57,187 nt of DNA from Carboxylicivirga fragile. Its GTDB lineage: Bacteria; Bacteroidota; Bacteroidia; Bacteroidales; Marinilabiliaceae. Every line of letters starts with the position of its first letter. The first letter of the stretch is position 1. The notes below the pieces were generated by a model that did no database searches, was not told where the DNA came from, and worked only from the letters and a program-made list of their open reading frames with translations. The translations under genes and the position numbers were made by a program. Of the stretch, positions 18,958 through 55,158 are shown in pieces. The DNA lies in assembly GCA_025499625.1 (NCBI GenBank), contig JAFMVD010000038.1, positions 1 to 57,187 of the forward strand, in the 5' to 3' direction.

Positions 18958-18982
18958 GACAAGGATGTTTATTGTGCGTGTA

Positions 18983-20125: not shown

Positions 20126-20291
20126 CGAATATGTTAATTGTAATCGTTTTAATTATAAAGACTAGGTGTAATTTAAGCCTAATTTATAGGTTTTAACGAA
20201 CGTTATGGTAAAAGGTTTGTTGTATGAGTATTATTTTTACTGGGATAAGCTGCTTATTTTTGTTGACGAATAGGAAAAAAAGAAATATATC

Positions 20292-31616: not shown

Positions 31617-31632
31617 TGAAATAGTGTGAGTG

Positions 31633-31670
31633 AAAAAGTGCTTTGGGTATAAGCCCAAAGCACTTTTTTT
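31633..31670 (+). terminator. Strong intercistronic hairpin terminator before the GH18 gene
   Basis: AAAAAGTGCTTTGGG (31633-31647), loop TATAAG, CCCAAAGCACTTTTT (31654-31668) plus further T. It is a classical terminator inside the PUL, so GH18 may be expressed at lower level by read-through, or from its own unseen promoter. Confidence 0.85.
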
Positions 31671-31734
31671 AGTTTAACCAACCTAATAAATGAAAACATG
31701 CCCGTACCGTGCATGTTCATAATACCTAATACTA

Positions 31735-34083: not shown

Positions 34084-36948
34084 ATGAAGAAATTAACTCT
34101 ATTAATGCTACTTGCTTTTCTATTGCAGATAAAATTAGTTGCTGCAGAAAGAAGTATGCTATTTTCATACCCGACACCTTATGAATATGAGTTGGTGGAT
34201 GGATCGTATAAAGTACTATCCATTGTGAAAAAGGAAAATTGGATTAAAGGTTCTAAACTGACATTTAAAGGGGAGCTTATTGAGGTTAGAGAGTTAAAGA
34301 ATGGAGATGTCGAATTGTGGTTGCCATTAATAGGTCAGCCCGACGTGATTTCTATTTCAAATAAAGTTAATGGAAAGAGGACAGTTACAAAACAGCTTTT
34401 TGAGCCGCTTATTCCAAGTGATTGGGATTATTTTGGGGAAGGAATGATTCATGTAATTGTTTCATCTCATCAAGATATTGCATGGATGAATTCGCCGGAC
34501 AGTTGCCGTGAAGAACGTGTTGAGAAAATTGTAATACCTGCCTTGGACTTAATGGAAGAATCGCCAGAGTTTAAGTTCGAAATGGAACAGTCATTAAATT
34601 TGATGGAAGCTCTTGAGGATTCACCAGAAAATAGACAACGTTTAATCGACACCTATAAAACGGGTAATTTTGAATGGGGAGCAACATTTACCCAGCCATA
34701 CGAAGGTTTAGAGTCTGGTGAACAATTGGTACGCCAATCCTATCTGGGGCGACGATGGATTAAGAAAACGCTTCCAGGAATGGATGCACACGTAGCTTAC
34801 AATATCGATGTACCTGGACGATCAATTCAGGTCCCTCAGTTATTTAAGAAATCAGGAATAGACTATTTATTCGTATCACGAATGAAGGAAGGGTTTTACA
34901 ATTGGTACAGCCCCGATGGATCAAGTATTTTCACATACAGTCCTGGTAATTATGGATGGTATCATTATCATCACAAGGTGCTTGATGAAGATGCCATTAC
35001 TGCTATTCATGAAATGCATAAAATCTTAAAAAGCTGGAATGCCTATTACCGTGAAAGAAATATTCCGCCACATTACGGTGCTGTTATTAGTGCCGATGCT
35101 GGTGGACCAAAATATTACAAGGAACTAATTGAAGGATGGAATGAGATTGCAAAGAATGCCGGGATAAAAATGCCGGAGATGGAGCATTCAACAGCTTTAG
35201 ATTTCTTACATGAAGTTGATGTGCCCGAAGCTAAGATTGATTCTATTTATGGCGAGCGACCAAATCTTTGGTTATACATTCATGGAGCAGCGCACTATCA
35301 GGCAATCTTGGCTAAAAAAGAAGCCGCAGTTAACATTCCTTCAGCCGAAATTTTCAACACAATTAACTGTGAATTGAATAATGATTTCTCGACTTATCCA
35401 CAAGAGGAGTTGGACAAAGCATGGTACAATGCCATTTATCCCGATCATGGTTGGGGTGGTAAGAATGGCGATATTACCGATAGTCTTTTCTGTGTAGCAT
35501 TGGAAACAGGTAATGAAATAGGAAAAAAGTTATTAGATCAATCTTTAGAAAGCATTTCTGAGAAGGTGGAGTTAAAGAATACACAAAACATTGTTGTTTT
35601 TAACGATTTATCGTGGAGTAGAGATGGATATGCTACTATTAACATATCACATTTGCAAGGAACAAATTGGTTTGTGGCTACAAGTGATGGTAAAAAAGTA
35701 CCAACGCAGTTAGTAAAAAGCGAAGGCAAAAAAGAGTTGGTATTTAGTTTAAACGATATGCCTTCAATTGGATATAAAACTTTTACAATTAAAAAAGGAA
35801 AGCGTCAAAGTGCAGAGATTGAAGCAGGTTCTAACTACTGCGATAATCAATTCTACAAAGTTGAATTTGGGCAAGGGGGAATTACTCGATTATTCGACAA
35901 GAACTTAAATAAGGAAGTATTTAATACCACGGCAATGGTTGGTGGCGACTTGTTTCACATGGGCTATGAAGGTAGTGGTGCAGGTGAGTTCGTTACTGTT
36001 ACAGCTCCTCACTATGGAGGCATGGAACGTGGACATCAGCAAGAAAGTACATGGAGCTTGATAGAATCTGGAGCTATATATTCTAAATTCCAATGTGAGT
36101 TTGAGATGGATACCTTTAAGGTTGAGCAGAACATAACAGTGTTTCACCAAAAGAAACAGATCGATTTAGAATACACCATTCCAGATTGGCCGGGAGTTCA
36201 CAATCGTCAGGTACGAGTTATGTTTCCATTAAATATGAATAAGGAATCACAGATATCGTATGATGTACCTATGGGAATGGTTCATGTGGGGCAAGATGAA
36301 TTAACTATGCGTCCGGGAGGATCAGCCTGGGGAGGTACTTATCTTCAAAAGTCTGAAGAGATTCATCCGCGTGAGATTCAGAATTTCATGACGGCTAATG
36401 GAAGTGGATTTGGATTTACAATGTCAACCAATGTGGTGACTGCCGATTGGGTTGACCCAAGCATGAATTCAGCTGATTATCCGGTTATTAATTCTATTCT
36501 TTTATCATCACACAAAAGTTGTCATTGGCAAGGCCCTTGGTATCACCAAACCGGAAGTCATACTTTCAAATTTTCTATCACATCGCACGAGGAAGGCTGG
36601 AAGAATGGATTTCATTTTGGAGTTGCTGAAAATCATCCAATGCACACTGTGTTAAAAGAAGAAAAGCAAAAAGGAGAATTACCTGCTGAGAAAAGTTTTG
36701 TGAGTACTAATGATCCTTTAACTGTAATTACCACTATCAAAAAAGCTGAAGATGATTCTGATGTGGTTATTCGTGTATTAGAAGCAGAGAATAAGGATAA
36801 AACTGTGAAGATTGAACTTCATAAATCTATTAAGTCCATATCTAAGACAGATATGATTGAAGATAATCCGGTTAAGCTGAATCAGAAGGGAAAAATTGTT
36901 GAGTTGGAGTTGGGTAAGAGTGCAGTTGAGACTTATAAAATGAAGTAG
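34084..36948 (+). CDS. GH38 alpha-mannosidase, exported (first copy)
   Basis: A 954-aa zinc-dependent retaining alpha-mannosidase with a signal peptide of about 20 residues (LLQIKLVAAE), so probably periplasmic. The catalytic domain begins near 118: VSSHQDIAWMNSP gives zinc ligands H129 and D131, and AYNIDVPGRS carries the nucleophile D242. RPNLWLYIHGAAHYQ and YPDHGWGGKNGDITD complete the active site. A large beta-sandwich C-terminal region follows (about 480-954). Length and layout fit exported bacterial GH38. It heads the operon running to the KDPG aldolase gene, with gaps mostly under 60 bp. It should remove terminal alpha-mannose and supply free mannose to the adjacent symporter. Confidence 0.9.
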   Translation: MKKLTLLMLLAFLLQIKLVAAERSMLFSYPTPYEYELVDGSYKVLSIVKKENWIKGSKLTFKGELIEVRELKNGDVELWLPLIGQPDVISISNKVNGKRTVTKQLFEPLIPSDWDYFGEGMIHVIVSSHQDIAWMNSPDSCREERVEKIVIPALDLMEESPEFKFEMEQSLNLMEALEDSPENRQRLIDTYKTGNFEWGATFTQPYEGLESGEQLVRQSYLGRRWIKKTLPGMDAHVAYNIDVPGRSIQVPQLFKKSGIDYLFVSRMKEGFYNWYSPDGSSIFTYSPGNYGWYHYHHKVLDEDAITAIHEMHKILKSWNAYYRERNIPPHYGAVISADAGGPKYYKELIEGWNEIAKNAGIKMPEMEHSTALDFLHEVDVPEAKIDSIYGERPNLWLYIHGAAHYQAILAKKEAAVNIPSAEIFNTINCELNNDFSTYPQEELDKAWYNAIYPDHGWGGKNGDITDSLFCVALETGNEIGKKLLDQSLESISEKVELKNTQNIVVFNDLSWSRDGYATINISHLQGTNWFVATSDGKKVPTQLVKSEGKKELVFSLNDMPSIGYKTFTIKKGKRQSAEIEAGSNYCDNQFYKVEFGQGGITRLFDKNLNKEVFNTTAMVGGDLFHMGYEGSGAGEFVTVTAPHYGGMERGHQQESTWSLIESGAIYSKFQCEFEMDTFKVEQNITVFHQKKQIDLEYTIPDWPGVHNRQVRVMFPLNMNKESQISYDVPMGMVHVGQDELTMRPGGSAWGGTYLQKSEEIHPREIQNFMTANGSGFGFTMSTNVVTADWVDPSMNSADYPVINSILLSSHKSCHWQGPWYHQTGSHTFKFSITSHEEGWKNGFHFGVAENHPMHTVLKEEKQKGELPAEKSFVSTNDPLTVITTIKKAEDDSDVVIRVLEAENKDKTVKIELHKSIKSISKTDMIEDNPVKLNQKGKIVELELGKSAVETYKMK

Positions 36949-36982
36949 TTAAAGACAAACCTCGATACAATAATTATTTAGT

Positions 36983-38431
36983 ATGGAAAAAAGAAAAGGT
37001 TCATTATATCTGTTAGTCATTAGTTTCGTTTCGACCATTGGCGGTTTTTTGTTTGGATACGACACGGCGATTATTTCTGGTTGTAATTCATTTCTGCAGT
37101 CTCATTTCGATTTAACGCCTGCAATGTTAGGTTGGGTAGTGTCTTCTGCACTTCTTGGAACCATTTTCGGATGTGTAGTTTCAGGTATAATAACCGATCG
37201 TATAGGGCGAAAGAATGCACTCATTGTCGCAGCAAGTTGTTTGACAATTTCGGCTATTGGTTCGATGTTGCCACCACAGTTTTTGGGTAATCCTGAACAT
37301 GCTCACTGGTTGACTGCTAACACGAGTTTCTCTTTTAATTTTCTAATTATATTTCGTGTAATTGGTGGTATTGGAGTAGGAATTACATCAGTTGTAGCTC
37401 CAATTTATATTTCAGAATTAACTAAACCAGAAAGTAGAGGTAAATTTGTATCTATCTATCAGTTATCCATAACATTAGGGATTTTGTTAGCTTTCATGGT
37501 AGACTGGATTGTATTGAGTGGGGCTGGTGAATCGGCAGGTGTCATTACAAATGAGCCTCATGGTTTGTGGAGTTGGTTGTTTGTTCATGAAATTTGGAGA
37601 GGCATGTTTGGTACTGAAATTCCAATAGCCTTACTGTTTCTCACTTTGTTGTTTTTCTCGCCTAAAAGTCCAAGATGGTTGGTTTCAAAAGGTAGAAAAG
37701 CTGAGGCTTTAACAATCATGACTAGAATTAGTGGATCTGAACAAGCCGAAAAGCAAATGGTAGAAATTAATGAGATGGTTGAAGCTGAAGAAGGTGGATT
37801 CAAAGAATTATTTAAACCATTCATGAGAACACCTCTTATGATCGGAATTTTACTTCCTATGTTTTCACATTTAAGCGGAATTGCTGCCATTATGTATTTT
37901 GCTCCCAACATCTTAAACGAATCGTTTCAAAGTGTTGAAAGCTCATTTTTAGGAGCCGTATTAGTTGGTGTAGTAAACTCAGTTTTCACCTTTGTGGCAA
38001 TTCTTAATATTGAGAGGTTTGGTCGTCGTAAGTTACTGCTAATAGGAGTAACAGGTGCTTTCTTATCGCTAACTGGAGTTGGTGTTCTTTTTGCCATAGG
38101 GTCCAATTTGGTAATTATACCATTATTGTGTTACGTAGCTAGTTTTGCGTTCTCATTTGGACCAGTAGTTTGGGTTATTATCAGTGAAATTTTCCCAACA
38201 CGAATTAGAGGCCTTGCTGTTTCAATTGGAAGTTTCTCGCTTATGGTAACTGGCTTTTTTATAACACTTACCAATCCAGTTTTTATAAAAACGATTGAAC
38301 CTAGTGGAACATTCTTTTTATACGGAGCACTCACACTTCCTGCCATTTGGTTCATTTGGAAATTTGTACCAGAGACGAAAGGAAAAACTCTAGAGCAAAT
38401 TGAGAAATACTGGAAAACTAAGAAGTGGTAA
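36983..38431 (+). CDS. MFS sugar porter (sugar:proton symporter)
   Basis: A 482-aa inner-membrane transporter with 12 predicted helices. Sugar-porter signatures are present: GGFLFGYDTAIISG in helix 1, the loop motif GIITDRIGRKNAL, PIYISELTKPESRGK near 145, SPKSPRWLVSKGR, and the C-terminal PETKGKTLEQIEKYW. It resembles XylE/GalP-type symporters. Because it brings sugar in unphosphorylated, it fits a cytosolic pathway that starts with oxidation of free mannose. Located 34 bp after the GH38 gene. Confidence 0.92.
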   Translation: MEKRKGSLYLLVISFVSTIGGFLFGYDTAIISGCNSFLQSHFDLTPAMLGWVVSSALLGTIFGCVVSGIITDRIGRKNALIVAASCLTISAIGSMLPPQFLGNPEHAHWLTANTSFSFNFLIIFRVIGGIGVGITSVVAPIYISELTKPESRGKFVSIYQLSITLGILLAFMVDWIVLSGAGESAGVITNEPHGLWSWLFVHEIWRGMFGTEIPIALLFLTLLFFSPKSPRWLVSKGRKAEALTIMTRISGSEQAEKQMVEINEMVEAEEGGFKELFKPFMRTPLMIGILLPMFSHLSGIAAIMYFAPNILNESFQSVESSFLGAVLVGVVNSVFTFVAILNIERFGRRKLLLIGVTGAFLSLTGVGVLFAIGSNLVIIPLLCYVASFAFSFGPVVWVIISEIFPTRIRGLAVSIGSFSLMVTGFFITLTNPVFIKTIEPSGTFFLYGALTLPAIWFIWKFVPETKGKTLEQIEKYWKTKKW

Positions 38432-38443
38432 GTAAAGAATAAA

Positions 38444-38878
38444 ATGAGAAGTATGAGTTTGATTGAAAAATATGCGGTTAAAGATAGTGGCTACCATCCC
38501 TTTTTAATTCGAGAAGGTTGGCAGGTTGCACAACTTAATGCAGACGAAAACCAAAAGATTGAGAACATTACAAAGTTGGATGTTCACTTTCAAACTGATG
38601 AAGTGTTTCTTTTGCTGAAAGGTAAAGCAGTTCTTATTACGGCATCCATAGAGAGTGGGAAGCCATTATTTGAAATGGAATTGATGCAAGCTGAGGTAAG
38701 TTACAATATCCCAAAGAATGTATGGCATAACATTGCCATGTATGACGGGTGTGAAGTCATTATCGTTGAGAAGTCGGATACCCATTTGTCCGATTTTGAA
38801 TTTCATCAATTATCGGAAGATGAGCAAATGGAAATGAGAGAGAAAGTGACAAGTTTAATTGAAAACGATAAAAAATAA
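38444..38878 (+). CDS. Small cupin-fold protein of unknown function
   Basis: A 144-aa protein (a start at 38453 is also possible) with a cupin-like core: KLDVHFQTDEVFLLLKGKAVLIT is the first cupin motif with its His and Glu, and VSYNIPKNVWHNIAMY provides the second-motif His. This can bind a metal and a sugar. No signal peptide. It is 12 bp after the symporter and 3 bp before the RraA-like gene, so it belongs to the mannose pathway operon. Possible roles are sugar epimerase, mutarotase/isomerase or lactone handling, but none can be assigned. Confidence 0.65.
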   Translation: MRSMSLIEKYAVKDSGYHPFLIREGWQVAQLNADENQKIENITKLDVHFQTDEVFLLLKGKAVLITASIESGKPLFEMELMQAEVSYNIPKNVWHNIAMYDGCEVIIVEKSDTHLSDFEFHQLSEDEQMEMREKVTSLIENDKK

Positions 38879-38881
38879 GAT

Positions 38882-39574
38882 ATGGCAATTTGGAAAGATG
38901 ATAAGGAGCTATTCAAGATAGCTAAAAAAGAATTGTTTGTTGCGTTAGTTGGCGATGTGTTGGATAAACTAGGTTATCAGCATCAATTTCTTTCACCTCA
39001 GCTTAAGCCGGTGAATACTGATTTTGTGGTTATTGGAAGAGCTATGCCTGTTCTAGAGGCTGATGTGTTTGAAGAGGTAGCAGATAAAACCAATAATCCA
39101 CTGATGAAGAAGCCTTTCGGGATTATGTTTGAGGCGCTTGATAGCTTGAAAGAAAACGAAGTGTATATATGTAGTGGATCTTCTCCAAGATATGCCCTAT
39201 GGGGTGGATTGATGAGTACCAGAGCCCTCAAACTAAAAGCGGCCGGAGCAGTTGTTAATGGTTACTCGAGAGATACAAACGAGATTTTGAGTCTTGAATT
39301 TCCAACTTTTTCAATGGGAGGATATGCACAGGACCAAGGCCCTCGTGGAAAAGTGATTGACTATAGGGTTCCAATTGAAATTGATGGAGTAAGGGTTAAT
39401 CCAGGCGATATTGTGTATGGTGACCGTGATGGTGTATTGATTGTACCTCAAGAAGTGGCTGATGAAGCCTTTACGGGAGCCATTGAGAAATCACGTGGCG
39501 AACAGCTCGTTAAAGAAGCGCTGGAAGCGGGCATGAGTACGGTTGACGCCTTTGATAAATTTGGAATAATGTAA
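38882..39574 (+). CDS. RraA-like / HMG-CHA aldolase-family protein
   Basis: A 230-aa cytosolic protein of the RraA fold. Segments such as YALWGGLMSTRALKLKAAGAVVNGYSRDTNEI (the Gly-rich loop and Arg-Asp pair that bind pyruvate and metal in the class II aldolases) and GDIVYGDRDGVLIVPQEV are diagnostic. In this fold, aldolases cleave 4-hydroxy-2-oxo acids, while RraA proper inhibits RNase E; the retained Arg-Asp pair and a sugar-acid operon favour an enzyme. A 2-keto-3-deoxy acid aldolase, decarboxylase or dehydratase role beside KDG metabolism is plausible. Not required for the deduced main route. Confidence 0.75.
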   Translation: MAIWKDDKELFKIAKKELFVALVGDVLDKLGYQHQFLSPQLKPVNTDFVVIGRAMPVLEADVFEEVADKTNNPLMKKPFGIMFEALDSLKENEVYICSGSSPRYALWGGLMSTRALKLKAAGAVVNGYSRDTNEILSLEFPTFSMGGYAQDQGPRGKVIDYRVPIEIDGVRVNPGDIVYGDRDGVLIVPQEVADEAFTGAIEKSRGEQLVKEALEAGMSTVDAFDKFGIM

Positions 39575-39591
39575 GCCTAAAAACTATCAAA

Positions 39592-40380
39592 ATGAGAGAG
39601 ATTGATTTAAAAGGAAAAAAGGCTTTGGTTACAGGCGGTAGCCAAGGCATAGGATCTGAAATATGTCGAGAGCTAGCCAGGTGCGGAGCTGATGTGCTTA
39701 TAAATTATTACTCCAATAAGGAAAAAGCTGAAATATTAGCTGAAGAGATCAAAAAGGAGCATAAGGTAAAAGCTGTTGTGGCAGGCGCAAATGTCGCCGA
39801 TTCAGCGCAAGTAAAAGATATGTTCTTATTATTGGATAAAGAGCTTGGGGGCATCGATATTTTGGTAAATAATGCAGGAACTGAAACGGTTGAGCACGTA
39901 CTGGATTTAGAAGAGGACGCATGGGATAAAGTGATGAATATAAATCTTAAAGGTCCTTGGTTGTGCTCGCGCGAAGCAGGCAGACGAATGCAGGGAAAAG
40001 GTGGAGTTATCATCAATATTTCGTCCATTCATGATGTGGTGCCACGTAAGGGCTTAATTCATTATTGCTCTGCTAAAGCGGGATTAAAGATGTTCTCTAA
40101 ATGTCTGTCATTAGAACTGGCCGAAGATAATGTACGCGTTGTATCTATCGCACCTGGTGCAATTGAGACTGAGATGAACCGTGAAGAGATAAATAAATTT
40201 GGTCGTCACAAGTTCGAAGAGTGGATTCCACAAGGAAGAGTTGGCGTTGTTCAAGATGTAGCGCCTTCTGTTGCATTTTTTGCTAGCGACTTGGCCAGCT
40301 ATGCCACAGGTACCGATGTGTATCTCGATGGATCATATATGAATCATACGATCCAATACGATCCACGACCACAAAAGTAA
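39592..40380 (+). CDS. SDR aldose 1-dehydrogenase (glucose-dehydrogenase-like; predicted mannose dehydrogenase)
   Basis: A 262-aa classical short-chain dehydrogenase. The cofactor motif TGGSQGIG is at 14-21, NNAG near 92, and the triad is S145, Y158, K162. The region SSIHDVVPRKGLIHYCSAKAG closely resembles the [21 protein letters not shown] segment of Bacillus glucose 1-dehydrogenase from memory, and INYYSNKEKAE matches the same enzyme's second beta strand. The predicted reaction is aldohexose + NAD(P)+ to the 1,5-lactone. Followed by a lactonase and mannonate dehydratase, the substrate is most likely D-mannose (inference). An alternative is a mannonate/fructuronate oxidoreductase of the SDR type. 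Confidence 0.85.
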   Translation: MREIDLKGKKALVTGGSQGIGSEICRELARCGADVLINYYSNKEKAEILAEEIKKEHKVKAVVAGANVADSAQVKDMFLLLDKELGGIDILVNNAGTETVEHVLDLEEDAWDKVMNINLKGPWLCSREAGRRMQGKGGVIINISSIHDVVPRKGLIHYCSAKAGLKMFSKCLSLELAEDNVRVVSIAPGAIETEMNREEINKFGRHKFEEWIPQGRVGVVQDVAPSVAFFASDLASYATGTDVYLDGSYMNHTIQYDPRPQK

Positions 40381-40482
40381 ATATTGAACAAGCGAGTTGG
40401 ATAATTATTAACATTCGCTTAAGGTTACAGAATTATAATGATGCTCAGTTTATTAGGTAAAATACTTTGTTTGAATACGATT

Positions 40483-41535
40483 ATGATTTTTTATACAGGA
40501 AGTTATACACAAGAAGGTGCGCCAGCATCCAATCCAACTGGTGAAGGTATTGGGTGTTTTACACTCGATTTAAGAAATGGAAATGTTAGTCCCTTGGGAT
40601 ATTTCAAGCAAAGAAATCCGAGTTACTTGGCCATTTCGAAGGATAAACATTTTTTGTATGCTGTTGAGGAAATGTACGAAGACCTCAATCCAGAGTTGTA
40701 TGCATATCGCATTATGCAAGATGGAAAATTGTCTTTGATAAACAAGCAAAAGCTATTTGGCGACTATGCTTGTCATATTGCAATAATAAAAGATCGATTA
40801 GTTGTGGCTAACTATGTTTCTGGAAATGTACTTTCTTATCCAATATTGGAGGATGGGAGTATAGCTCCACATAGTCAGTTGATCCAGCATTCTGGTATCG
40901 GTCCAAATGCAGAGAGACAAGAAGCTGCCCATGCGCATATGGTTTATCCCTATGGTGATAAACATATGTATGTGGTGGATTTAAGCCTCGATAAGGCTGT
41001 AGCATACCGATTTGATGAAGCAGAAAACAGCTGGTTTACTCAGGAAGAAAATGATATTAGCATTGCATCAGGTGCGGGAGCTAGACATATGATAATGGAT
41101 TCTACTGGTGAATTTGCTTATATACTTAGTGAATTAACGGGAGAGATATTTGTAGCAGAACAGAAGAAGGAACTATTTGATCTTATTCAAAACATTTCAT
41201 TTGTGCCTCAGTCATTCACCGATGCTTTTGGGGGCGCAGCAATTCGTTTGCATCCGAATGGTAAGTTTCTTTATGCTTCTTGTCGAGGAGCTAATACGCT
41301 TGCAATATTTAAGATTGATGCAGTGTCAAATAAACTGACTTTAGTTGGGCATCAATCCAGTGGAGGAGAAACGCCACGTGATTTTAATATTGATCCAACT
41401 GGTCAATGGTTGATAGCTGCCAACCAGGATTCGAACTCGTTAGTGGTTTTTAAAATAAATCAAGACTCGGGTGAGCTTACAATGCATTCCGAAATATCGG
41501 TTGATACGCCTGTAAATATAACTTGGCTCGATTAA
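40483..41535 (+). CDS. Beta-propeller lactonase (6-phosphogluconolactonase YbhE-like)
   Basis: A seven-bladed beta-propeller lactonase of about 350 aa. I prefer the start at 40483 (MIFYTGSYTQ...), which matches how the family begins; ATG codons at 40438 and 40441 would add 14-15 residues of poor fit. Features: FYTGSYT in the first strand, NPSYLAISKDKHFLYAVEE, ACHIAIIKDRLVVANYVSGNV, AHAHMVYPYGDKHMYVVDL and the C-terminal TPRDFNIDPTGQWLIAANQDSNSLVVFKI. Cytosolic. In this operon the likely substrate is the mannonolactone made by the SDR, rather than 6-phosphogluconolactone. Confidence 0.85.
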   Translation: MIFYTGSYTQEGAPASNPTGEGIGCFTLDLRNGNVSPLGYFKQRNPSYLAISKDKHFLYAVEEMYEDLNPELYAYRIMQDGKLSLINKQKLFGDYACHIAIIKDRLVVANYVSGNVLSYPILEDGSIAPHSQLIQHSGIGPNAERQEAAHAHMVYPYGDKHMYVVDLSLDKAVAYRFDEAENSWFTQEENDISIASGAGARHMIMDSTGEFAYILSELTGEIFVAEQKKELFDLIQNISFVPQSFTDAFGGAAIRLHPNGKFLYASCRGANTLAIFKIDAVSNKLTLVGHQSSGGETPRDFNIDPTGQWLIAANQDSNSLVVFKINQDSGELTMHSEISVDTPVNITWLD

Positions 41536-41577
41536 GTGCTGACTTACTAAAGTTTACTATCAGTAAAGAAAAATACA

Positions 41578-42717
41578 ATGATTGAATTAAAAGGGATGGC
41601 TTGGGATCATCCGCGAGGATATGAGCCTTTAAGAGCGGCATCAAAGGAGTTTTCAAAACTTCATCTAGAAGTCTCCATTAAATGGGATGTTAGGTCGTTA
41701 AAGGAGTTTGGCGACATGCCTATTGAATCTTTAATCGAAAGGTATGATTTGATTACCATCGATCATCCTTATATGGGGCAAGCCGATAAAAATGGCTTAC
41801 TTCAAGCTCTTGAGTCGCATATTTCAAAAGCATCGTTAAACAAGCTTGAAGAACAATCGGTTGGACCAAGTTTTAAGTCCTATCAATATAATAATCATAT
41901 TTATGCCTTACCTATTGATGCGGCTGCTTTAGTTGGTGCCTATCGTAACGATATTGTTGAGAATAGAGGGCTTGTTTTGCCTAAAACGAAAGAGGAGTTA
42001 AAACGCTTTTATTGTCATTTGCCGAATGATTTATCAATAGCATGGGCACTTTGTCCGACTGATTTCTGGTGTACATTTTTAACCTTATGCGCACAGAGTA
42101 ATGGTCGCGATTTTATTAATGGTCAAGGTATTGATTTGGAAATTGGCATAAGGGTTCTGGACGAGATAAAGAGTCATCTTGACTATTTGCATCCAAGATC
42201 AATGGAGTGGAACCCTATTCAGATACTTGATCACATGGGAGCTAATGACGATATTGTTTATTCGCCTTACTTATTTGGGTATACCAATTATTCACGCTTA
42301 GGATATGCGAAAAACTTGGTTCACTTCTGTAATAGCCCACAAAATAAGGAAGGAATATCTACAATACTTGGCGGCGTTGGACTTGCGGTATCCTCTCACA
42401 GCTCAGTAGCCGACTTGGCTGCTAAATTTGTTGAGTTCGTGGCAGGAGAAGTGATTCAAGAGGGAATCTTTACCGATAATGGTGGACAGCCAGGAAACCT
42501 AAGGGCATGGACAAGCAGTAAGAACAATGAGTTGTGCAATAACTTTTTTAAGGATACTCTACATACGCTTGAAACAGCCTATGTGCGTCCTCAGTTCCCA
42601 GGATGGAACCAGTTTCAAGAACAAGGGGCTGATATGTTACATGCAGGTGTTGCAGCCTATCGGAATAGTAGAAGTGTGATTAAGAACTTGAACGAACTAT
42701 ACCAAACAATTATATAA
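41578..42717 (+). CDS. Cytosolic extracellular-solute-binding-protein-like protein, no export signal
   Basis: A 379-aa protein with the fold signature of ABC-transporter sugar-binding proteins (YDLITIDHPYMGQADKNGLLQAL, YALPIDAAALVGAYRND, GGVGLAVSSHSSVADLAAKFVEFVAGEVIQ, FTDNGGQPGNL). It starts MIELKGMAWDHPRG with no signal peptide or lipobox, and no ABC permease or ATPase is near. It therefore probably works in the cytosol, as an enzyme or sensor built on a binding-protein fold. The next gene, an enoyl-CoA hydratase, starts 1 bp after its stop. Together with the CoA-transferase they form a tight three-gene set. Function unknown. Confidence 0.75.
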   Translation: MIELKGMAWDHPRGYEPLRAASKEFSKLHLEVSIKWDVRSLKEFGDMPIESLIERYDLITIDHPYMGQADKNGLLQALESHISKASLNKLEEQSVGPSFKSYQYNNHIYALPIDAAALVGAYRNDIVENRGLVLPKTKEELKRFYCHLPNDLSIAWALCPTDFWCTFLTLCAQSNGRDFINGQGIDLEIGIRVLDEIKSHLDYLHPRSMEWNPIQILDHMGANDDIVYSPYLFGYTNYSRLGYAKNLVHFCNSPQNKEGISTILGGVGLAVSSHSSVADLAAKFVEFVAGEVIQEGIFTDNGGQPGNLRAWTSSKNNELCNNFFKDTLHTLETAYVRPQFPGWNQFQEQGADMLHAGVAAYRNSRSVIKNLNELYQTII

Positions 42718-42718
42718 G

Positions 42719-43489
42719 ATGACAAACTTTGAAACAGTTGTAATAGAGAAAGTGGATAAGGTAGCCATTCTTAAATTCAATCGTCCTGAACAGTTGAATG
42801 CCATGAATAGGCAAATGATGGATGAAATTATCGAAGCCATTGATTTGATTAATTGTGATGAAGATGTTTGTGTGGCAATGATTTGTGGTGAAGGACGAGC
42901 ATTTATGGCTGGAGCTGATATTAAAGAATATGGTAGCCAGACCAATGAAGAATTTATTGCTTTTCAACAGAAAGGAAAACGTTTATACGAATCCATTGAA
43001 AATTCAAGTAAACCATGGATTGCAGCAGTTGATGGCTTTGCGCTAGGAGGTGGTTTAGAAATAGCCCTATCGTGCGATATGCTCGTGGCTTCAGATCAAT
43101 CTAAAATGGGCTTACCCGAAGTTTTCTTGAGCCTTATCCCTGGTGGAGGAGGAACTCAACGTTTAATCCAAAAAATTGGAATTAATCGGGTTAAGGAGAT
43201 GTTGTTTTTTGGTGCACAATATAATGCCAAAGAGTTAAACAACTGGGGAATTATCAATCGAGTTTTTAGCAACAATTCCTTTATGGACGAAGCATTGACC
43301 TTTGCTAGTAAATTATCCCGCCGTTCGGCACAATCCATTACTCAATTAAAGCGCTTGGCTAATTTGAGTACGACAACTCTGGATTTTAATCAACGAATAG
43401 AAGATGAGGCTCAGACGGTTAAAGATTTGTTTCTTCAAGATGAAGCACAGGCGGCCATACAGAATTTCATTAAAAAATCAGAAAAGTAG
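42719..43489 (+). CDS. Enoyl-CoA hydratase/isomerase (crotonase family)
   Basis: A 256-aa crotonase-fold enzyme. LKFNRPEQLNAMN, the oxyanion-hole motif AGADIKEY and VDGFALGGGLEIALSCD are standard. Both catalytic glutamates of true hydratases are present with the canonical 20-residue spacing: E114 in GGGLEIAL and E134 in GLPEVFLSLIPGGGGTQRL. So it should add or remove water from a 2-enoyl-CoA. It lies between the binding-protein-like gene and the CoA-transferase gene with gaps of 1 and 3 bp. Its acyl-CoA substrate in a sugar operon is not evident. Confidence 0.9.
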   Translation: MTNFETVVIEKVDKVAILKFNRPEQLNAMNRQMMDEIIEAIDLINCDEDVCVAMICGEGRAFMAGADIKEYGSQTNEEFIAFQQKGKRLYESIENSSKPWIAAVDGFALGGGLEIALSCDMLVASDQSKMGLPEVFLSLIPGGGGTQRLIQKIGINRVKEMLFFGAQYNAKELNNWGIINRVFSNNSFMDEALTFASKLSRRSAQSITQLKRLANLSTTTLDFNQRIEDEAQTVKDLFLQDEAQAAIQNFIKKSEK

Positions 43490-43492
43490 ATC

Positions 43493-44683
43493 ATGGAAAA
43501 TAACGGACCATTAAAAGGCTTGGTTGTTGCAGATTTTTCACAATTGGCTCAAGGCCCTTGGGCTACTCAACAACTAGGCGACATGGGTGCTGATATCATT
43601 AAGATTGAGCCCCCAAAAGGAGATTGGATGCGACATTATTCGTATGGGAACCTCTATCCCGAAGGAGAAAGCATCTCGTTTGTAAGTTTCAATAGGAATA
43701 AAAAAAGCATTGCGCTTGACCTTAAATCGGAAGAGGGCAAGAAAATTGCCAAGGATATTATTTTGAAGGCGGATATTCTTCTGGAGAATTTCCGCCCTGG
43801 GGTAATGGAGCGTTTAGGTTTAGGTTATGAAGAAATTAGGAAGTTACATCCCGGCATCGTTTATTGTTCTAGTTCAGGTTATGGAGCTTCTGGTCCCTAC
43901 TTAAAACGACCCGGACAAGATTTAATGGCCCAATCCATAAGTGGAGGAGCGGCACTTAATGGCAAAAGAGGAGACGTACCTGTTGTTACTGCTGTTGGCC
44001 AAGCCGATTTACTAACAAGTTTGTTTATTGTACAATCGGTACTAGCTGCTATCTATTCGAGAAGTATTTCGGGAAAAGGGCAAAAGATTGAAGCCAACTT
44101 AATGAACTCTGCAGTTGGTTTTCATATTCAGGAAGTAACAGCCTTCTTGCATAAAGGAGAGAATCCAGAGAAGAGCGCTAGTGGCATTCCAAACCCTTGG
44201 TTAGGTGCACCTTATGGCTTGTATAATACAAAGGATAGTTTTGTGGCAATTGGTATGAACTCTGTTCAGAAAGTTGCACAAGCCATTGGTTTTGAGAAGT
44301 ATGATTCTGCTGAGTTTGATTCCAATAACATTATTGAGGGAAGAGATGAAATTCGTTTCGATTTTGACGAGGTATTCAAGACCAAGACAACAGATGAATG
44401 GTTAGAAATTCTTTTGGAACATGATATCTGGTGCTCTCAGGTCAATACATTTAATGAGATGGTTGAAGATCCTCAGATCAAGCACAACCAGATGATTATT
44501 GAGTATGAACACCCAACAATTGGAAAAGTGAAAACGACAGGATTTCCAGTGTCATTTGGCGAAACACCTCAGCAGATTTACAAACCAGCTCCTTTACTAA
44601 ATGAGCATGCAGGGGAGATATTAAAGGAGTTTTGCAATTTTAATGATGATGAGGTAACATCATTTTTAAATGCTCCAAAGTAG
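43493..44683 (+). CDS. CaiB/BaiF-type class III CoA-transferase
   Basis: A 396-aa family III CoA-transferase. VADFSQLAQGPWATQQLGDMGADIIKIEPPKGD at the N terminus, RNKKSIALDLKSEEGK, and RPGQDLMAQS with the catalytic Asp143 are diagnostic. It moves CoA between carboxylic acids, suggesting that an acid made in this pathway, perhaps a sugar acid or a deoxy-keto acid, is activated as a CoA thioester and then handled by the adjacent hydratase. No donor or acceptor can be named. No signal peptide. Confidence 0.9.
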   Translation: MENNGPLKGLVVADFSQLAQGPWATQQLGDMGADIIKIEPPKGDWMRHYSYGNLYPEGESISFVSFNRNKKSIALDLKSEEGKKIAKDIILKADILLENFRPGVMERLGLGYEEIRKLHPGIVYCSSSGYGASGPYLKRPGQDLMAQSISGGAALNGKRGDVPVVTAVGQADLLTSLFIVQSVLAAIYSRSISGKGQKIEANLMNSAVGFHIQEVTAFLHKGENPEKSASGIPNPWLGAPYGLYNTKDSFVAIGMNSVQKVAQAIGFEKYDSAEFDSNNIIEGRDEIRFDFDEVFKTKTTDEWLEILLEHDIWCSQVNTFNEMVEDPQIKHNQMIIEYEHPTIGKVKTTGFPVSFGETPQQIYKPAPLLNEHAGEILKEFCNFNDDEVTSFLNAPK

Positions 44684-44732
44684 TTTATTTAAGATAGAAA
44701 TCGTCTAATATCTTGATACTAAAAACAAACAC

Positions 44733-45809
44733 ATGAAACTAGGATTCGGATTATATAAGCACATGCTCAACGAAGAGCACTATAAGTTTGCCAAGCAATG
44801 TGGTGCAACACATTTAGTTGTTCATTTAGTCGATTACTTTGGTAACGATGATAATAATAAGGAAAATGCCAATCAACCTATTGGAGAGAAAGATGGCTGG
44901 GGAGGTGCAGGTAATGGGCAACTTTGGAGTTTAGAAGAAATTTTAAGAATTAAAAAAGAAATCAATAGTCACGGTTTGGAATGGGAAGCTATTGAAAACT
45001 TTGATCCTGCAATATGGCACGATATTCTTTTGGATGGTCCCAAAAAAGAAGAGCAGATTGAATTAGTTAAAGAACAAATTCGGATTGTTGGTAAGGCCGG
45101 TATCCCATATTTTGGATATAACTTTTCTTTAGCTGGCGTTTCGAGCCGCGATATTGGACCTTATGCGCGTGGAGGGGCCGAGTCGGTAGGAATGAATGGA
45201 GCGGTTGATGAAACACCTATTCCAAATGGTATGGTTTGGAACATGGTATATGATAAAAATGCTTCAGAAGGAACATTAGCTCGTATCGGCCATGACGAAT
45301 TGTGGAAACGTCTGGAGTACTTTTTGAAAAATTTGGTTCCTGTTGCCGAAGAAGCTGGTGTAATATTGGCTGCTCACCCCGATGATCCCCCGATGCCGTA
45401 TGTAAGAAATACACCACGTTTGGTTTATCAACCGGATATGTATCAGCGTTTAATTGACATCAAACCAAGTGATAATAGTAAACTAGAGTTTTGTTTAGGT
45501 TCGGTTGCTGAAATGACTGAAGGAGATGTATACGAAGCCACCGATCGCTACTCAAAACAAAACAAGGTAGGATACATTCATTTCCGAAATATTATTGGCA
45601 AAGTGCCAAACTATAAAGAGGTGTTTGTTGACGAAGGAGATATCGATATGATTAAGATACTACGCATTTTGAAAAAGAATAATTTTCAAGGCGCTTTAAT
45701 TCCCGATCACACACCACAAATGAGTTGCGCGGCACCTTGGCACGCAGGAATGGCTTATGCCATGGGATTTATGAAAGCAGCTATTTCGAGAGTTAACGAA
45801 GAAAAATAA
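44733..45809 (+). CDS. uxuA: Mannonate dehydratase (UxuA family)
   Basis: A 358-aa TIM-barrel enzyme that dehydrates D-mannonate to 2-keto-3-deoxy-D-gluconate. The likely metal ligands H215 (AAHPDDPP), C254 (EFCLGS), H283 (YIHFRN) and D325 (IPDHTPQ) match the His/Cys/His/Asp set of UxuA in order and spacing. The length equals the shorter Gram-positive-type UxuA (about 360 aa). No uronate isomerase (UxaC) or fructuronate reductase (UxuB) is in the operon, so mannonate probably comes from mannose oxidation, not glucuronate. KDG kinase follows after 22 bp. Confidence 0.9.
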   Translation: MKLGFGLYKHMLNEEHYKFAKQCGATHLVVHLVDYFGNDDNNKENANQPIGEKDGWGGAGNGQLWSLEEILRIKKEINSHGLEWEAIENFDPAIWHDILLDGPKKEEQIELVKEQIRIVGKAGIPYFGYNFSLAGVSSRDIGPYARGGAESVGMNGAVDETPIPNGMVWNMVYDKNASEGTLARIGHDELWKRLEYFLKNLVPVAEEAGVILAAHPDDPPMPYVRNTPRLVYQPDMYQRLIDIKPSDNSKLEFCLGSVAEMTEGDVYEATDRYSKQNKVGYIHFRNIIGKVPNYKEVFVDEGDIDMIKILRILKKNNFQGALIPDHTPQMSCAAPWHAGMAYAMGFMKAAISRVNEEK

Positions 45810-45831
45810 GGACGATTAATATATTAAAAGC

Positions 45832-46875
45832 ATGAATAAAGGGAAAGTTATAACATTTGGAGAAATAATGTTGAGGTTATCAACGCCGGGTTATTTAAGG
45901 TTTTCTCAAGTGTCTGAATTTACTGCTACCTATGGAGGAGGTGAAGCTAATGTGGCTGTCTCATTAGCCAATTATGGTATACCTGTTGATTTTGTTACAC
46001 GTCTGCCAGAAAATGATTTGGGACGAGCTTGTACCATGGATCTACGAAAACATGCAGTTGGCGTAGATAACATTATCTATGGAGGGGAGCGTTTAGGTAT
46101 CTATTTTCTAGAAACAGGAGCAGTAAGTCGTGCCAGTAAGGTAGTTTACGATCGTGCATACTCAGCTATCTCAACCATAAAAAGTGGAATGGTAAAGTGG
46201 GATAAGGTGTTTGAAGGAGCCACTTGGTTTCATTGGACAGGAATTACACCTGCAATTTCACAAGGAGCTGCTGATGTTTGTTTGGAAGCAATCGAAGAAG
46301 CGAATAAAAGAGGTATTACAGTTTCAACGGATTTGAATTATAGAAAGAACCTGTGGAACTACGGTAAGGAAGCCAATGAGGTAATGCCTAAGTTGGTTTC
46401 GGGATGCGATGTTATTTTGGGTAACGAAGAAGATGCTGAAAAAGTATTAGGCATTAAACCATTTGGCATTGATGTAACCGGAGGGCATATCGAAGCGGAT
46501 GCTTACTTATCGGTATCGCAACAAATAGTTGAGCAATTTCCAAGATGTAAGAAGGTGATTACCACCTTACGTGGATCAATCAGTGCCAATCATAACTCAT
46601 GGACTGGTGTTCTTTACGATGGAAAAACACTTTACAAAGCCAACAATACCTACCAGATAACGCATATCGTTGATCGTGTTGGTGGTGGTGATTCTTTTAT
46701 GGGAGGTTTAATATATGGACTTCTTACTTATCCAACTGATGATCAGAAAGCGCTCGATTTTGCCGTGGCAGCATCGTGCCTTAAGCACACCATCTTTGGC
46801 GATTATAATCAGGTAAGCGTTGAGGAAGTTGAGAAGTTGATGAATGGTGATAGTTCAGGTCGTGTTTCACGTTAA
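45832..46875 (+). CDS. kdgK: 2-keto-3-deoxygluconate kinase (PfkB family)
   Basis: A 347-aa PfkB-type sugar kinase that phosphorylates KDG to KDPG. The N terminus VITFGEIMLRLSTPGYLRFSQ and FTATYGGGEANVAVSLANYG match KdgK proteins; GNEEDAEKVLG lies in the middle. The ATP and catalytic-base signature VDRVGGGDSFMGGLIYGLL is near the C terminus. The order dehydratase-kinase-aldolase fixes the substrate fairly well. Confidence 0.92.
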   Translation: MNKGKVITFGEIMLRLSTPGYLRFSQVSEFTATYGGGEANVAVSLANYGIPVDFVTRLPENDLGRACTMDLRKHAVGVDNIIYGGERLGIYFLETGAVSRASKVVYDRAYSAISTIKSGMVKWDKVFEGATWFHWTGITPAISQGAADVCLEAIEEANKRGITVSTDLNYRKNLWNYGKEANEVMPKLVSGCDVILGNEEDAEKVLGIKPFGIDVTGGHIEADAYLSVSQQIVEQFPRCKKVITTLRGSISANHNSWTGVLYDGKTLYKANNTYQITHIVDRVGGGDSFMGGLIYGLLTYPTDDQKALDFAVAASCLKHTIFGDYNQVSVEEVEKLMNGDSSGRVSR

Positions 46876-46892
46876 TTGTAGATAAAACTAAG

Positions 46893-47570
46893 ATGGCTAG
46901 ATTTTCAAGAATTGAAGTAGCATTAAAAATGAAAGAAATTGGCATGGTTCCAGTTTTCTTTCATTCCGATCTAGAGGTATGTAAGCTGGTTGTAAAGGCT
47001 TGTTATATAGGTGGGGCAAGATTGTTTGAGTTCGTTAATCGTGGCGATTATGCACATGAGGTATTTAGTAATTTAAATAAATGGTGTGAACAAGAATGTC
47101 CTGAAATGATCCTTGGTGTTGGCTCTGTGATTGATGCAGGAACCACCGCTTTGTATTTGCAACTAGGTGCCAATTTTATTATTTCGCCCATATTAAATGC
47201 TGAGATGGCTAAAGTATGTAATCGTCGTAAGGTTGCTTGGTCGCCAGGTTGCGGTTCTTTAAGCGAAATATCGCAAGCCGAAGAATTAGGAGCTGAAGTG
47301 GTAAAAATATTTCCTGGTGAGCAAGTTGGTGGATCTGAATTTGTAAAAGCCGTGTTAGGGCCTTTCTCGTGGTCGTCAATAATGCCAACCGGAGGTGTGA
47401 GGCCGGAGTACGATAATTTAAAGAAGTGGTTTGATGCTGGTGTTCATTGTGTTGGCATGGGTTCGCAACTTATTCCTCAAAAGGTGATTGAGGCAGGTTC
47501 GTACACTGAGCTTACATTAAATGTTAGGTCTACTTTAGATATGATTTGTGCGATACGTCAAAAGTCATAA
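46893..47570 (+). CDS. eda: KDPG aldolase (2-dehydro-3-deoxy-6-phosphogluconate aldolase)
   Basis: A 225-aa class I aldolase cleaving KDPG to pyruvate and glyceraldehyde-3-phosphate. The Schiff-base lysine is K138 in VVKIFPGEQVGG. The catalytic Glu is in LFEFVNRG, and the phosphate-binding PTGGVRP is present. It is the last gene of the operon that starts at the first GH38. Confidence 0.93.
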   Translation: MARFSRIEVALKMKEIGMVPVFFHSDLEVCKLVVKACYIGGARLFEFVNRGDYAHEVFSNLNKWCEQECPEMILGVGSVIDAGTTALYLQLGANFIISPILNAEMAKVCNRRKVAWSPGCGSLSEISQAEELGAEVVKIFPGEQVGGSEFVKAVLGPFSWSSIMPTGGVRPEYDNLKKWFDAGVHCVGMGSQLIPQKVIEAGSYTELTLNVRSTLDMICAIRQKS

Positions 47571-47873: not shown

Positions 47874-50800
47874 ATGAAAAACATGAATTATATACAGATG
47901 AAGACAAAAGCATTTTCTGAAATAGCTATTATCAGATACGCCTTTTTAAGTATTGTGATGTTATCTACATTGAGTTTGAAAGCGCATGAAAGTGCTGGTA
48001 GAAGTCAAATTCATGAGATGAATGACAACTATAAGTTGTACCAAATTTGTAAAAATGATATTGAAGGATTCTCTAGCCAATTAAGTGGAGGTATGTATCC
48101 TTATCCTTCCTTACGCGCCGATGTGTACAATGCAATGATCGCTAGGGCATCAACAGGTGAGTCGGGTTTTGATTTCCTTACTGCTGTGGTACCAGTCGAA
48201 TATTCTGGTGATATGGTCAATTTCTTCTTTTATTCAGACATTGACTTAAATAACCTTGAACCATATGACATTAAGGTTAACGATAAGCCTTTGTTATCTT
48301 TTGTTCCTGAGAAAAATGGCAACTTAGAAATATTGAGCAATCCGGGACATGGTGATGCAAAATACATTTTGCAAAAACGTGATCATAATGGAGACGGAGT
48401 AGGAGCATTTCGATTAAGTGTACCTGCTAATATGTTGGTAAAAGGTGAACAAGCTAAAATATCTGTGTATGGGCAGGCTAAAGGCACCAATGCTTGGTTC
48501 ATGTTATTCAAATCCACCAATATAGTACATTGGTTAAAGAATTCAACTCAGCACGAGGTTTCGTTTTCGATTAAGCAGTTTACTGATAAGTTGTTAATTG
48601 ATGCGCCTGCACATTGGGTTGGAAAGAAAGTGTCTGTTGTTTCTGATGGTAAGAAAAGTAAACCAGCTACGTTTAAATTACAAGGGGAAATGGCAAAAGC
48701 TGCTGTATCAGCCGATGCCCCTAGAAAATCGTTCCAGATAAAATATGGCGATGCTGTTTACAGTGTTGAATTTCCTAAAGGAGATGGAGATGTTAGTGAG
48801 AATATCGTGAAGGGAGATTTCTATTTCGCATCGCATGCGCATTCACACAATGGTTGGTTAGGTGATTTTAGTAAACGTTATCGTCCTGAATATTACCAGG
48901 CATACAAGCCGTTTTTTGAAAATAAGTATGAGAAGGGTTTGCTTTCAATCATGAATTCAAGTCATCAGGATATTGCTTGGGTCGACCGTCCGGAGGCTTG
49001 TATAATAATGCGCGATACGCTGCTTTTCACCCCTATTATTAAAGCTGCTTTGGCTCGCGAAGATTATGGTTTTGATATTGAAGATGGATTAATGTTACGC
49101 GAGTATATTGAACGTCATCCTGAATCGAAGGCAAAACTGACCGAATTATTAAATCGCAAATTACTTTCGGTAGGAGCCACTTACAATTGTCCTTACGAAG
49201 ATATGTACGATGGCGAGGATTTAGTGCGTCAATTGTATTTAGGTAAGTTATGGGTTAAGAAGAATTTTGGAGGATACGATTCCAAAGTTTATTGGAATGT
49301 GGATGTTCCTGGAAAAACAGCTCAATTACCTCAGATTCTGAAAAAGGCAGGTGTTGATTACATGATCATTAGTCGCCATGCTAAAACAATGGTGCATTGG
49401 GCAAGTCCGGATGGCAGTTCAGTATTTACTTATTCTCCGGGACATTATGGTGCTGATTTATTACAATTAGAAAAAGGCATTGATGAGCAAATGAAATATG
49501 GAGCCGAGCAAGTTGTTTGGTGGAGTCAATATTTTGAAGGAGGAGAAACACAAACGCCACTTCTTTCAAGTCAGGACATGCTTCCGGCTATCGATTACTC
49601 TGAGTTTATCGATAAATGGAATGAAACAGAATCAGTAATAGATAATGAAGATACTGAAAGAGACGTTTATTTGCCGTCAATGGAGTTAATGACTGTTGAT
49701 GAGTTTATGCCATTGGCTGAGCAAAATGCAAGGTCTATCGATACCATTAGAGGCGAGCGTCCTAATGTATGGGTTTATATACATGGCCCAGCCCATCACG
49801 ATGCGTTGACGGCCAGTCGTAAAGCATCAAAGTTATTGCCTGCAGCAGAGAAATTCCTAACAGTAGCTTCTGTGTTAGATGAAGAAAAAATGCCTTATCC
49901 ATATCAAGAACTCGATGCCGGATGGCAAGCAAAAATATATCCCGATCATGGTTGGGGAGGTCACGATGGCGATATCACTGATAACTTATTTAAAGAGAGT
50001 TTGGTGGAGTCGCAAGTAATAGGAGAGAAGTTATTAGATAAGGCTACTAACTTTATTGCTCAACGCGTAAAAACGCAAGAGAAGAAAGGTATTCCAGTGG
50101 TGCTTTTCAACAGCTTATCATGGGAAAGAACGGATCCAGTAAATATTGCCTTAGATTTCCTTAAGGGAAAAGCAATGGGGTTAAGTGTGATTAACGCTGA
50201 AAAAGTAAATGTACCAATTCAATATACAGAAGTTATTAAACATGATGATGGCAGTATCAAACATGCCAAAATTGTATTTGTAGCTGAAAATATTCCTTCG
50301 GTTGGATACAAAACATTCTATGTTAAACCTGAGATGAAAAGTAATTATTCGGATGCAACACCTAATTACAAAGGGGTATATGAGAATGATTTTTACAAAA
50401 TTAATTTTGTTGATGGAGGAATTGACCAGGTTTACGATAAAGAATTAAAGAAGAATTTATTTGCGACTAATGAATTCAAGGTTGGAGAGATTTTTACGCT
50501 TCAATCGGAAGGTAACGGAGCCGGTGAGTTTGGTGATGTACAGCAACCATTCATGAAGAATTTTGATCAGGTAAGTATCCATAATCCAAAATGGACACTT
50601 GTTGCTTCGGGTGAAGTATTCTCAACTTATCGTTTAGAGCAACAAATCAGACATGCGAAAGTGGAAAAAAACGTCACCATTTATCACAAATTAAAACGTA
50701 TTCAATTCGATAACAGATTGCACAATTGGGATGGTGAAATGTATCGAGAATTCAGAACGGCTTATCCGGTTGCGATCAACAATTCAACTGTATCTCATGA

Positions 50801-55124: not shown

Positions 55125-55158
55125 AAAAAGTGTAAGAATTTATATTCACAATAGTATT

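Follow-up and report, generated by a model that had tools for sequence, protein, structure and literature searches.

The 57,187-nucleotide stretch of Carboxylicivirga fragile DNA analyzed here (the window, which is contig C72 of a 5.6 Mb genome) carries a run of twelve + strand genes at 34084-47570 that probably takes mannose oxidatively, via mannonolactone, mannonate, and 2-keto-3-deoxygluconate (KDG); we infer its substrates and reactions from gene families and gene neighborhoods. Bacteria are assumed to phosphorylate the mannose of alpha-mannan and N-glycans for entry into glycolysis. The genes of the run are separated by gaps of 1 to 57 bp and encode, in order, a GH38 alpha-mannosidase-family protein, a sugar transporter of the MFS type, a small cupin, an RraA-like protein, a short-chain dehydrogenase/reductase (SDR), a lactonase, a solute-binding-protein (SBP) homologue, an enoyl-CoA hydratase (ECH), a family III CoA-transferase (CoAT), a UxuA-like dehydratase, a KDG kinase (KdgK), and the aldolase Eda. 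Judged by family, a C1 dehydrogenase, a mannonate dehydratase, and a KDG-cleaving step are thus together in one cluster.

In the proposed route, GH38 and GH92 enzymes would free mannose from alpha-mannosides and the MFS transporter would import it. The SDR would oxidize free D-mannose at C1 to mannonolactone, the propeller lactonase would open the lactone to D-mannonate, and the divergent UxuA would dehydrate mannonate to KDG, which in this operon KdgK would phosphorylate before Eda cleaved the product. Aldoses are ordinarily converted to aldonates by such a pair, a glucose dehydrogenase-type SDR and a lactonase, which are for that reason the presumed source of the aldonate here; the nearest solved relatives of the SDR are FabG proteins and glucose 1-dehydrogenases, and the lactonase falls far below the cut-offs of both NCBIfam 6-phosphogluconolactonase models. 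The aldose would be mannose, the sugar expected from the action of GH38 and GH92 and, in relatives, of GH76 together with GH85. Genes for both of the latter adjoin the core of the operon in relatives, which suggests mannan or N-glycan as the glycan.

The sequence-only reading of this DNA had already described an SDR with an S145/Y158/K162 triad, a YbhE-type lactonase, a KDG kinase, and a KDPG aldolase with its Schiff-base lysine, all in one operon headed by an alpha-mannosidase and a sugar symporter. Each of these was found, on the same strand and with GH38 and MFS first; the lactonase matches PF10282, the kinase is of the PfkB type, and the lysine of Eda is Lys138. Its inventory named seven genes correctly and overlooked the other five of the twelve, namely the SBP homologue, ECH, and CoAT inside the interval it covered and the cupin and RraA-like genes just upstream. 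Its mannonate dehydratase has the complete metal set that had been claimed: H215, C254, H283, D325, and H326, presumably the metal ligands and catalytic His of canonical UxuA, align with canonical UxuA and with 3ban. The protein passes Pfam PF03786 with 167 bits against a gathering score of 23.7, but the family call is weaker than had been stated, as described below.

Gene context of the dehydratase in relatives

A scan of GTDB species genomes found 251 relatives of the UxuA-like protein, and the best 80, which represent the nearest part of the subfamily, were fetched with their flanks. Counts are given over 77 of these 80 loci; L074, L075, and L081 were dropped because their UxuA open reading frame was lost by a gene caller in which the longest frame wins. 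A run was defined as the same-strand genes around UxuA with gaps below 400 bp, genes were labeled according to their resemblance to window proteins and to reference proteins identified with Pfam, and contexts were defined solely by GH38, GH76, or GH92 or by UxaC in the same run. By these definitions 45 loci were mannosidase type, 6 were UxaC type, none were both, and 26 were neither, many of the last being cut by contig ends. The closest kin of the window protein are from Carboxylicivirga and Labilibaculum, and the conserved operon occurs in Marinilabiliaceae, Prolixibacteraceae, Flavobacteriaceae, Chitinophagaceae, and others.

The two contexts carry different partners. The 45 mannosidase-type runs contain RraA in 42, MFS in 41, the window-type SDR in 40, cupin in 39, lactonase in 31, CoAT in 25, SBP in 24, ECH in 24, and KdgK and Eda in 5 each, and neither UxaC nor the other type of SDR in any. 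All six UxaC runs carry UxaC, the other SDR, and an Nramp gene, four carry RraA, and none has the window-type SDR, lactonase, cupin, or MFS. The two SDR types are well separated, the window SDR being 50 to 93% identical to 46 SDRs of its own type and 27 to 34% identical to 13 of the other type. The window-type SDR (40/45 versus 0/6; Fisher p 2.6e-5) and the lactonase (31/45 versus 0/6; Fisher p 0.0022) are therefore both tied to the mannosidase context, with p values that overstate independence since the loci share ancestry.

Close homologues of the window dehydratase occur in the UxaC runs as well (81% identity in L011 and 79% in L027; 76 to 81% for the four UxaC members aligned). In the UxuA tree a well-supported clade of 15 rows (99/93) holds all six UxaC rows and six rows of the glycosidase type, one of them the window, and the other 40 glycosidase-type rows fall outside it; a single origin of the UxaC group appears in 4% of bootstrap trees. 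This suggests that the dehydratase swapped its front end at least once with little sequence change. Because it serves both contexts with so little change, it would most simply catalyze the same reaction in both, and since the reaction in the UxaC context is mannonate to KDG, the mannonate of the mannosidase context would come from another source. Two different front ends thus seem to supply one dehydratase with mannonate. The earlier proposal that mannose is oxidized at C1 into an Entner-Doudoroff-like branch is supported by this shared UxuA subfamily and by the linkage of SDR and lactonase to alpha-mannosidases, but it leaves the five overlooked genes unexplained.

In each of the six UxaC runs, and in two other loci, the neighbor of the UxuA-like gene is an Nramp metal transporter gene (e.g., L011, 8721-9965), whose product may supply the metal of the dehydratase.

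Evidence against the route and alternative explanations

Several observations weigh against an oxidative mannose route. The UxuA-like protein fails the NCBIfam UxuA cut-offs (146.3 versus 191 for NF003027 and 106.1 versus 199.55 for TIGR00695). The genome's canonical UxuA scores 507 and 478.2 with these models, and the two proteins share 25% identity. At the column of the catalytic Tyr of the S. suis enzyme, which we take to be Y325, members of the subfamily have Tyr or His, with gaps nearby. The SDR family is promiscuous, and mannose and glucose are not told apart by sequence. The lactonase is absent from 14 of the 45 mannosidase-type runs, and mannonolactone is said to open spontaneously in the Thermoplasma system (PMC6901390), so that a lactonase is no proof of a lactone.

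Gene calls also leave five of the 45 runs without the SDR (L046, L028, L003, L032, and L031). With tblastn on four of these, the SDR was present in L046, its start was seen at the cut end of the L028 sequence, L003 was found to be cut by its contig, and no SDR, lactonase, SBP, ECH, or CoAT was detected in the 21 kb fetched for L031. Furthermore, the complete separation of the two contexts hinges on the 400-bp limit: in L020 a canonical SDR-UxuA-SDR-UxaC set (17201-21060) lies 469 bp after the mannosidase run, and in L052 a canonical uronate set (6368-9785) lies on the opposite strand, 216 bp from the UxuA-like gene. With strict labels the tree needs 2 changes of context, of which supported branches force only 1; higher figures (5 changes, 3 forced) had come from labels partly defined by SDR and cupin and are superseded. 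Finally, the home genome holds a phosphomannose isomerase (PMI; contig C104) and five ROK proteins. The weaker tree and the L020 and L052 loci lowered our confidence in the mannose route.

Among the alternatives, the one that fares best is that another sugar or a modified mannose (such as an acylated or deoxy sugar), released by GH38 and GH92, is oxidized, with the CoA genes treating the modification. The conserved CoAT, hydratase, and cupin, all superfluous for plain mannose, speak for it, as do acetylesterase-type (SASA) and M24 genes in some relatives and the distance of the GH38 proteins from solved ones. However, the UxuA shared with UxaC runs points to a mannonate substrate and no CoAT was seen in 20 of the 45 mannosidase-type runs, some of them cut short, and we consider this alternative unlikely. 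A little less probable is that mannose is mainly phosphorylated and isomerized, the operon being a minor or overflow branch. The PMI and ROK proteins would serve this scheme, but PMI is required for GDP-mannose synthesis anyway, and the window operon contains neither a ROK-type sugar-6-kinase nor a PMI (the unlabeled genes of relatives were scanned for these only in part).

The least probable alternative is the Ashwell route, in which the locus would handle glucuronate-derived mannonate and the SDR would be a fructuronate reductase; six relatives combine the same UxuA subfamily with UxaC and an SDR, UxaC exists in the home genome, and canonical uronate sets lie close to the UxuA-like gene in L020 and L052, but those two sets, both from Flavobacteriaceae, bring their own distant UxuA with only 69 to 72 bits to the window protein, UxaC is in 0 of 45 mannosidase-type runs, the UxaC runs carry another SDR, and the lactonase has no role in a glucuronate route. 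The home genome also speaks against it. Its canonical UxuA is on contig C118 beside an SDR of the D-mannonate oxidoreductase (UxuB) type, and its sole UxaC match is on contig C92 with altronate dehydratase and tagaturonate reductase, in a galacturonate-type operon; its own uronate genes are thus apart from the mannosidase operon. The statement that no uxaC or uxuB is present was accordingly true of the window (where UxuB of the mannitol dehydrogenase family was not sought across the whole length) but not of the genome, and the judgment drawn from it, that glucuronate is an unlikely origin of the mannonate, stands on the evidence above. Glucuronate was rejected as the mannonate source on the same grounds, and oxidation of mannose remains the preferred reading of the operon.

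Lower part of the route

The semi-phosphorylative ending proposed from the window alone fits the window but is not general, since KdgK and Eda are in 5 of the 45 mannosidase-type runs versus 42 with an RraA-like protein; in an earlier count, both were found anywhere in the fetched locus for 7 of 43 SDR-bearing runs. This ending is therefore optional and not a conserved part of the route. In most relatives the RraA-like protein, a candidate KDG aldolase, would cleave KDG directly, giving a non-phosphorylative ending. RraA relatives include class II pyruvate aldolases, and KDG cleavage by the RraA-like protein is put forward here purely as a hypothesis. Its NCBIfam matches, such as 4-carboxy-4-hydroxy-2-oxoadipate aldolase, are far below cut-off, and the copies in four UxaC runs are 79 to 83% identical to that of the window. 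Eda was found in 40 of 40 genomes searched, reached through 41 loci, so a phosphorylated ending may still apply. RraA as the sole KDG-cleaving enzyme was not kept, for the same reason.

Features of the window

The coordinates of the operon and of the features around it are collected in Table 1. A second GH38 gene begins 303 bp 3' of Eda and is followed by GH92, and a LacI-type regulator and SusC-like and SusD-like proteins are encoded upstream of the run.

TABLE 1 Predicted features of the mannosidase operon and its surroundings in the window
Feature	Position	Strand	Supporting matches and residues
GH38 alpha-mannosidase-family protein, first gene of the run	34084..36948	+	PF01074 105.7 bits, PF07748, PF17677; best solved alpha-mannosidase match Ams1 46 bits, distant
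MFS sugar transporter	36983..38431	+	PF00083 345.9 bits
Small cupin	38444..38878	+	WbuC cupin model 20.7 bits, below cut-off 42; fold
RraA-like protein	38882..39574	+	PF03737 110.7 bits; R130-D131
SDR, proposed NAD(P)-dependent mannose 1-dehydrogenase	39592..40380	+	NF005559 glucose 1-dehydrogenase subfamily 215.3 bits, cut-off 215; S145/Y158/K162
Seven-bladed propeller lactonase, proposed mannonolactonase	40438..41535	+	PF10282 309 bits
SBP homologue, probably cytosolic	41578..42717	+	PF13416 33.9 bits
ECH, crotonase family	42719..43489	+	PF00378 189.5 bits; E114, E134
Family III CoAT	43493..44683	+	PF02515 357.6 bits; D172
Divergent UxuA-subfamily mannonate dehydratase (predicted)	44733..45809	+	PF03786 167 bits; H215/C254/H283/D325/H326
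KDG kinase-like PfkB sugar kinase	45832..46875	+	PF00294 105.5 bits; kinase part of NF041633 491 bits, fusion-model cut-off 700 not reached
KDPG/KHG aldolase (Eda), Lys138	46893..47570	+	NF005499 353.7 bits, cut-off 275; PF01081 117.1 bits
Second GH38 alpha-mannosidase-family protein	47874..51455	+	PF01074 83.8 bits, PF17677, PF07748; partial matches to solved alpha-mannosidases
GH92 alpha-mannosidase-family protein with PA14 domain	51479..54124	+	PF07971 534.9 bits
LacI-type regulator, upstream	23557..24579	+	PF00356, PF13377
SusC-like TonB-dependent receptor	25031..28105	+	PF07715 Plug, PF13715
SusD-like lipoprotein	28125..29687	+	PF12741/PF12771

Two Laminin_G_3-containing proteins, perhaps surface glycan-binding, are encoded between SusD and the first GH38 (29751-33789). 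Located 3' of GH92, at 54486-56733, are genes for a CutC-family protein (PF03932) and an M81/MlrC-family protein (PF07364, PF07171), a pair that also follows the core in L020, L023, and L145. In several Flavobacteriaceae, a second set of genes, for an MFS protein, an SDR of another type, and a second CoA-transferase, lies beside GH92 after the core (L047, 14755-18121; also L042, L048, L066, and L148). A gene of the M24 family (creatinase/prolidase fold) is present in 6 of the 45 mannosidase-type runs, either between the hydratase and the CoA-transferase or beside the SDR (e.g., L030, 7621-8799; L061, 6780-7994; L068, 5608-6786).

Genes without a part in the proposed route

The cupin, SBP homologue, ECH, and CoAT play no part in the proposed mannose route. 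For the cupin there was no Pfam match. Its structural model (pLDDT 88.8) has as its best fold match 3d0j, a protein of unknown function, with sugar 3,4-ketoisomerases among the next, and in an alignment of 21 sequences H48 is invariant and E53 and H95 are nearly so. The cupin may be isomerase- or mutarotase-like; the fold search did not single out a function.

The SBP homologue has an SBP fold (AlphaFold2 pLDDT 94.2), and the best Foldseek match was the sulfoquinovosyl-binding protein SmoF (7ofy, TM score 0.83). No export signal or lipobox was visible by eye in the window protein or 28 listed homologues. The window protein opens directly with a conserved KGxxWDHPRGY stretch and should therefore stay cytosolic; in the homologues no more than about 20 residues precede the conserved, mature-like part. 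In the ECH both E114 and E134, presumably the catalytic Glu residues, are kept, and its nearest solved relative is 3-hydroxypropionyl-CoA dehydratase; the CoAT keeps D172, which we take to be the active-site Asp, and is nearest to succinate-hydroxymethylglutarate CoA-transferase among solved proteins. All three genes occur together in 24 of the 45 mannosidase-type runs. The idea that the SBP homologue is an obligate CoAT subunit was lowered, as it occurs without ECH and CoAT in L146 and L149 and with CoAT fragments in L145; L044/L147, which are one locus, gave no CoAT by tblastn. An SBP match was found in 7 of 295 genomes of the class of the window, the home genome included; in the family to which L010 belongs, the number was 24 of 299.

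More distant SBP homologues (34 to 38% identity) lie beside CoA-transferases in the six plasmid records examined of 146 matching, from Persicobacter, Rufibacter, Sinorhizobium, Roseibium, Thalassospira, and Methylobacterium, with MaoC in five, Gfo/Idh/MocA in four, and RhaT or L-rhamnose mutarotase in four. Seventeen loci of this distant type were fetched, in which the SBP is accompanied by two CoA-transferases in 15, Gfo/Idh in 14, MaoC in 11, and RhaT in 8, a crotonase taking the place of MaoC in two. The MaoC-type cluster of L155 adjoins an alpha-rhamnosidase-like gene, and the crotonase clusters of L153 and L157 lie next to GH2 genes whose Mannosidase_ig domain scores weakly, though above cut-off. 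Crotonases catalyze a syn elimination, and MaoC hydratases are R-specific. By a geometry check, syn elimination of the crotonase kind from a 2-hydroxy acyl-CoA needs the 2S,3S configuration. Of nine aldonates compared, D-mannonate is the sole one with this configuration, and L-rhamnonate is the sole one with its mirror image, 2R,3R, as a MaoC hydratase would be expected to require. The crotonase version would thus fit D-mannonate and the MaoC version L-rhamnonate.

One conceivable, though doubtful, explanation of these genes is a CoA-thioester branch in which the cytosolic SBP would deliver the acid formed by sugar oxidation, the transferase would load CoA, and the hydratase would dehydrate the acyl-CoA at C2-C3. 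The stereochemistry and the neighbors of L153, L155, and L157 agree with it. It is weakened because UxuA would already perform the same dehydration, no CoAT was seen in 20 of the 45 runs, and the SBP persists in relatives without the hydratase and transferase.

The clusters of SBP, CoA-transferases, Gfo/Idh, and MaoC, often with RhaT (L100-L105, L150-L155, and L157-L160), recur in Bacteroidota (Flavobacteriaceae, Persicobacter, and Rufibacter) and partly in alphaproteobacterial plasmids; literature searches found no description of them. They resemble the window in an SBP homologue without visible signal peptide (about 33 to 40% identity), an adjoining family III CoA-transferase, and mostly a hydratase and sugar oxidation genes, and they differ in having two CoA-transferases, Gfo/Idh, and MaoC and, by gene labels, a close UxuA in none of 17. 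L156 (7606-13414) may represent yet another, third type of oxidative sugar cluster, with a further RraA next to SDRs, an enolase-superfamily-like protein, and an SBP homologue that is divergent (29% identity).

Comparison with known systems

If true, an oxidative mannose operon would change flux models of these glycan eaters, and the UxuA subfamily with its neighboring SDR would become markers for it. It would also raise two questions: do these RraA-like proteins act as KDG aldolases, and for what reason do CoA enzymes and a cytosolic SBP accompany sugar oxidation? No bacterial oxidative mannose pathway and no CoA-transferase sugar-acid route was recognized in the open-licence literature, an absence that is weak evidence.

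The nearest parallels are archaeal. ManD of Thermoplasma belongs to a different superfamily, and the 25 top-scoring models of the window SDR do not include the aldose dehydrogenase model NF005007. Conversion of mannose to mannonate and on to KDG has been rebuilt in vitro with Thermoplasma acidophilum enzymes (AldT, ManD, and KDG aldolase; PMC6901390), and that route shares with the window an aldohexose dehydrogenase, a mannonate dehydratase forming KDG, and a cleavage step, the dehydrogenase and dehydratase genes being adjacent. Unlike the window, it is archaeal and in vitro, relies on spontaneous lactone opening, and is presented without a glycan operon in the parts of that article dealing with the route (PMC6901390). 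For the haloarchaeon Natronoglomus, a mannan route has been proposed from a mannanase cluster, mannonate dehydratases, and a putative sugar dehydrogenase, with RraA in the legend of the cluster figure and a semi-phosphorylative ending, as in the window; it differs in being archaeal, directed at beta-mannan, and a prediction only, with a GH109-like oxidoreductase as the dehydrogenase and no CoA genes mentioned in the sections that describe the cluster (PMC10963439).

Within Bacteroidota, an arabinogalactan polysaccharide utilization locus (PUL) of Maribacter sp. MAR_2009_72 includes a mannonate dehydratase, which its authors see as a hint of sugar acid metabolism (PMC11036162). The likeness is by gene name, and the glycan is a different one, with no mannose route proposed in the account of that locus. 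Mannonate uptake by Ruegeria (PMC8027193) and the GDP-mannose dehydrogenase family (PMC3973600) are different from a mannose oxidation route, and uronate genes are reported in a pectin PUL (PMC5306329), each to judge from the relevant portions of these articles.

The UxaC-UxuB-UxuA glucuronate pathway shares with the window a mannonate dehydratase leading to KDG and close UxuA homologues, but in the window its front end is replaced: UxaC is missing, the SDR is a different one, and a lactonase is added. Oxidative mannose use itself is known or proposed in archaea; the predicted variant in Bacteroidota would have a UxuA-type dehydratase, a dedicated lactonase, and a mannosidase operon.

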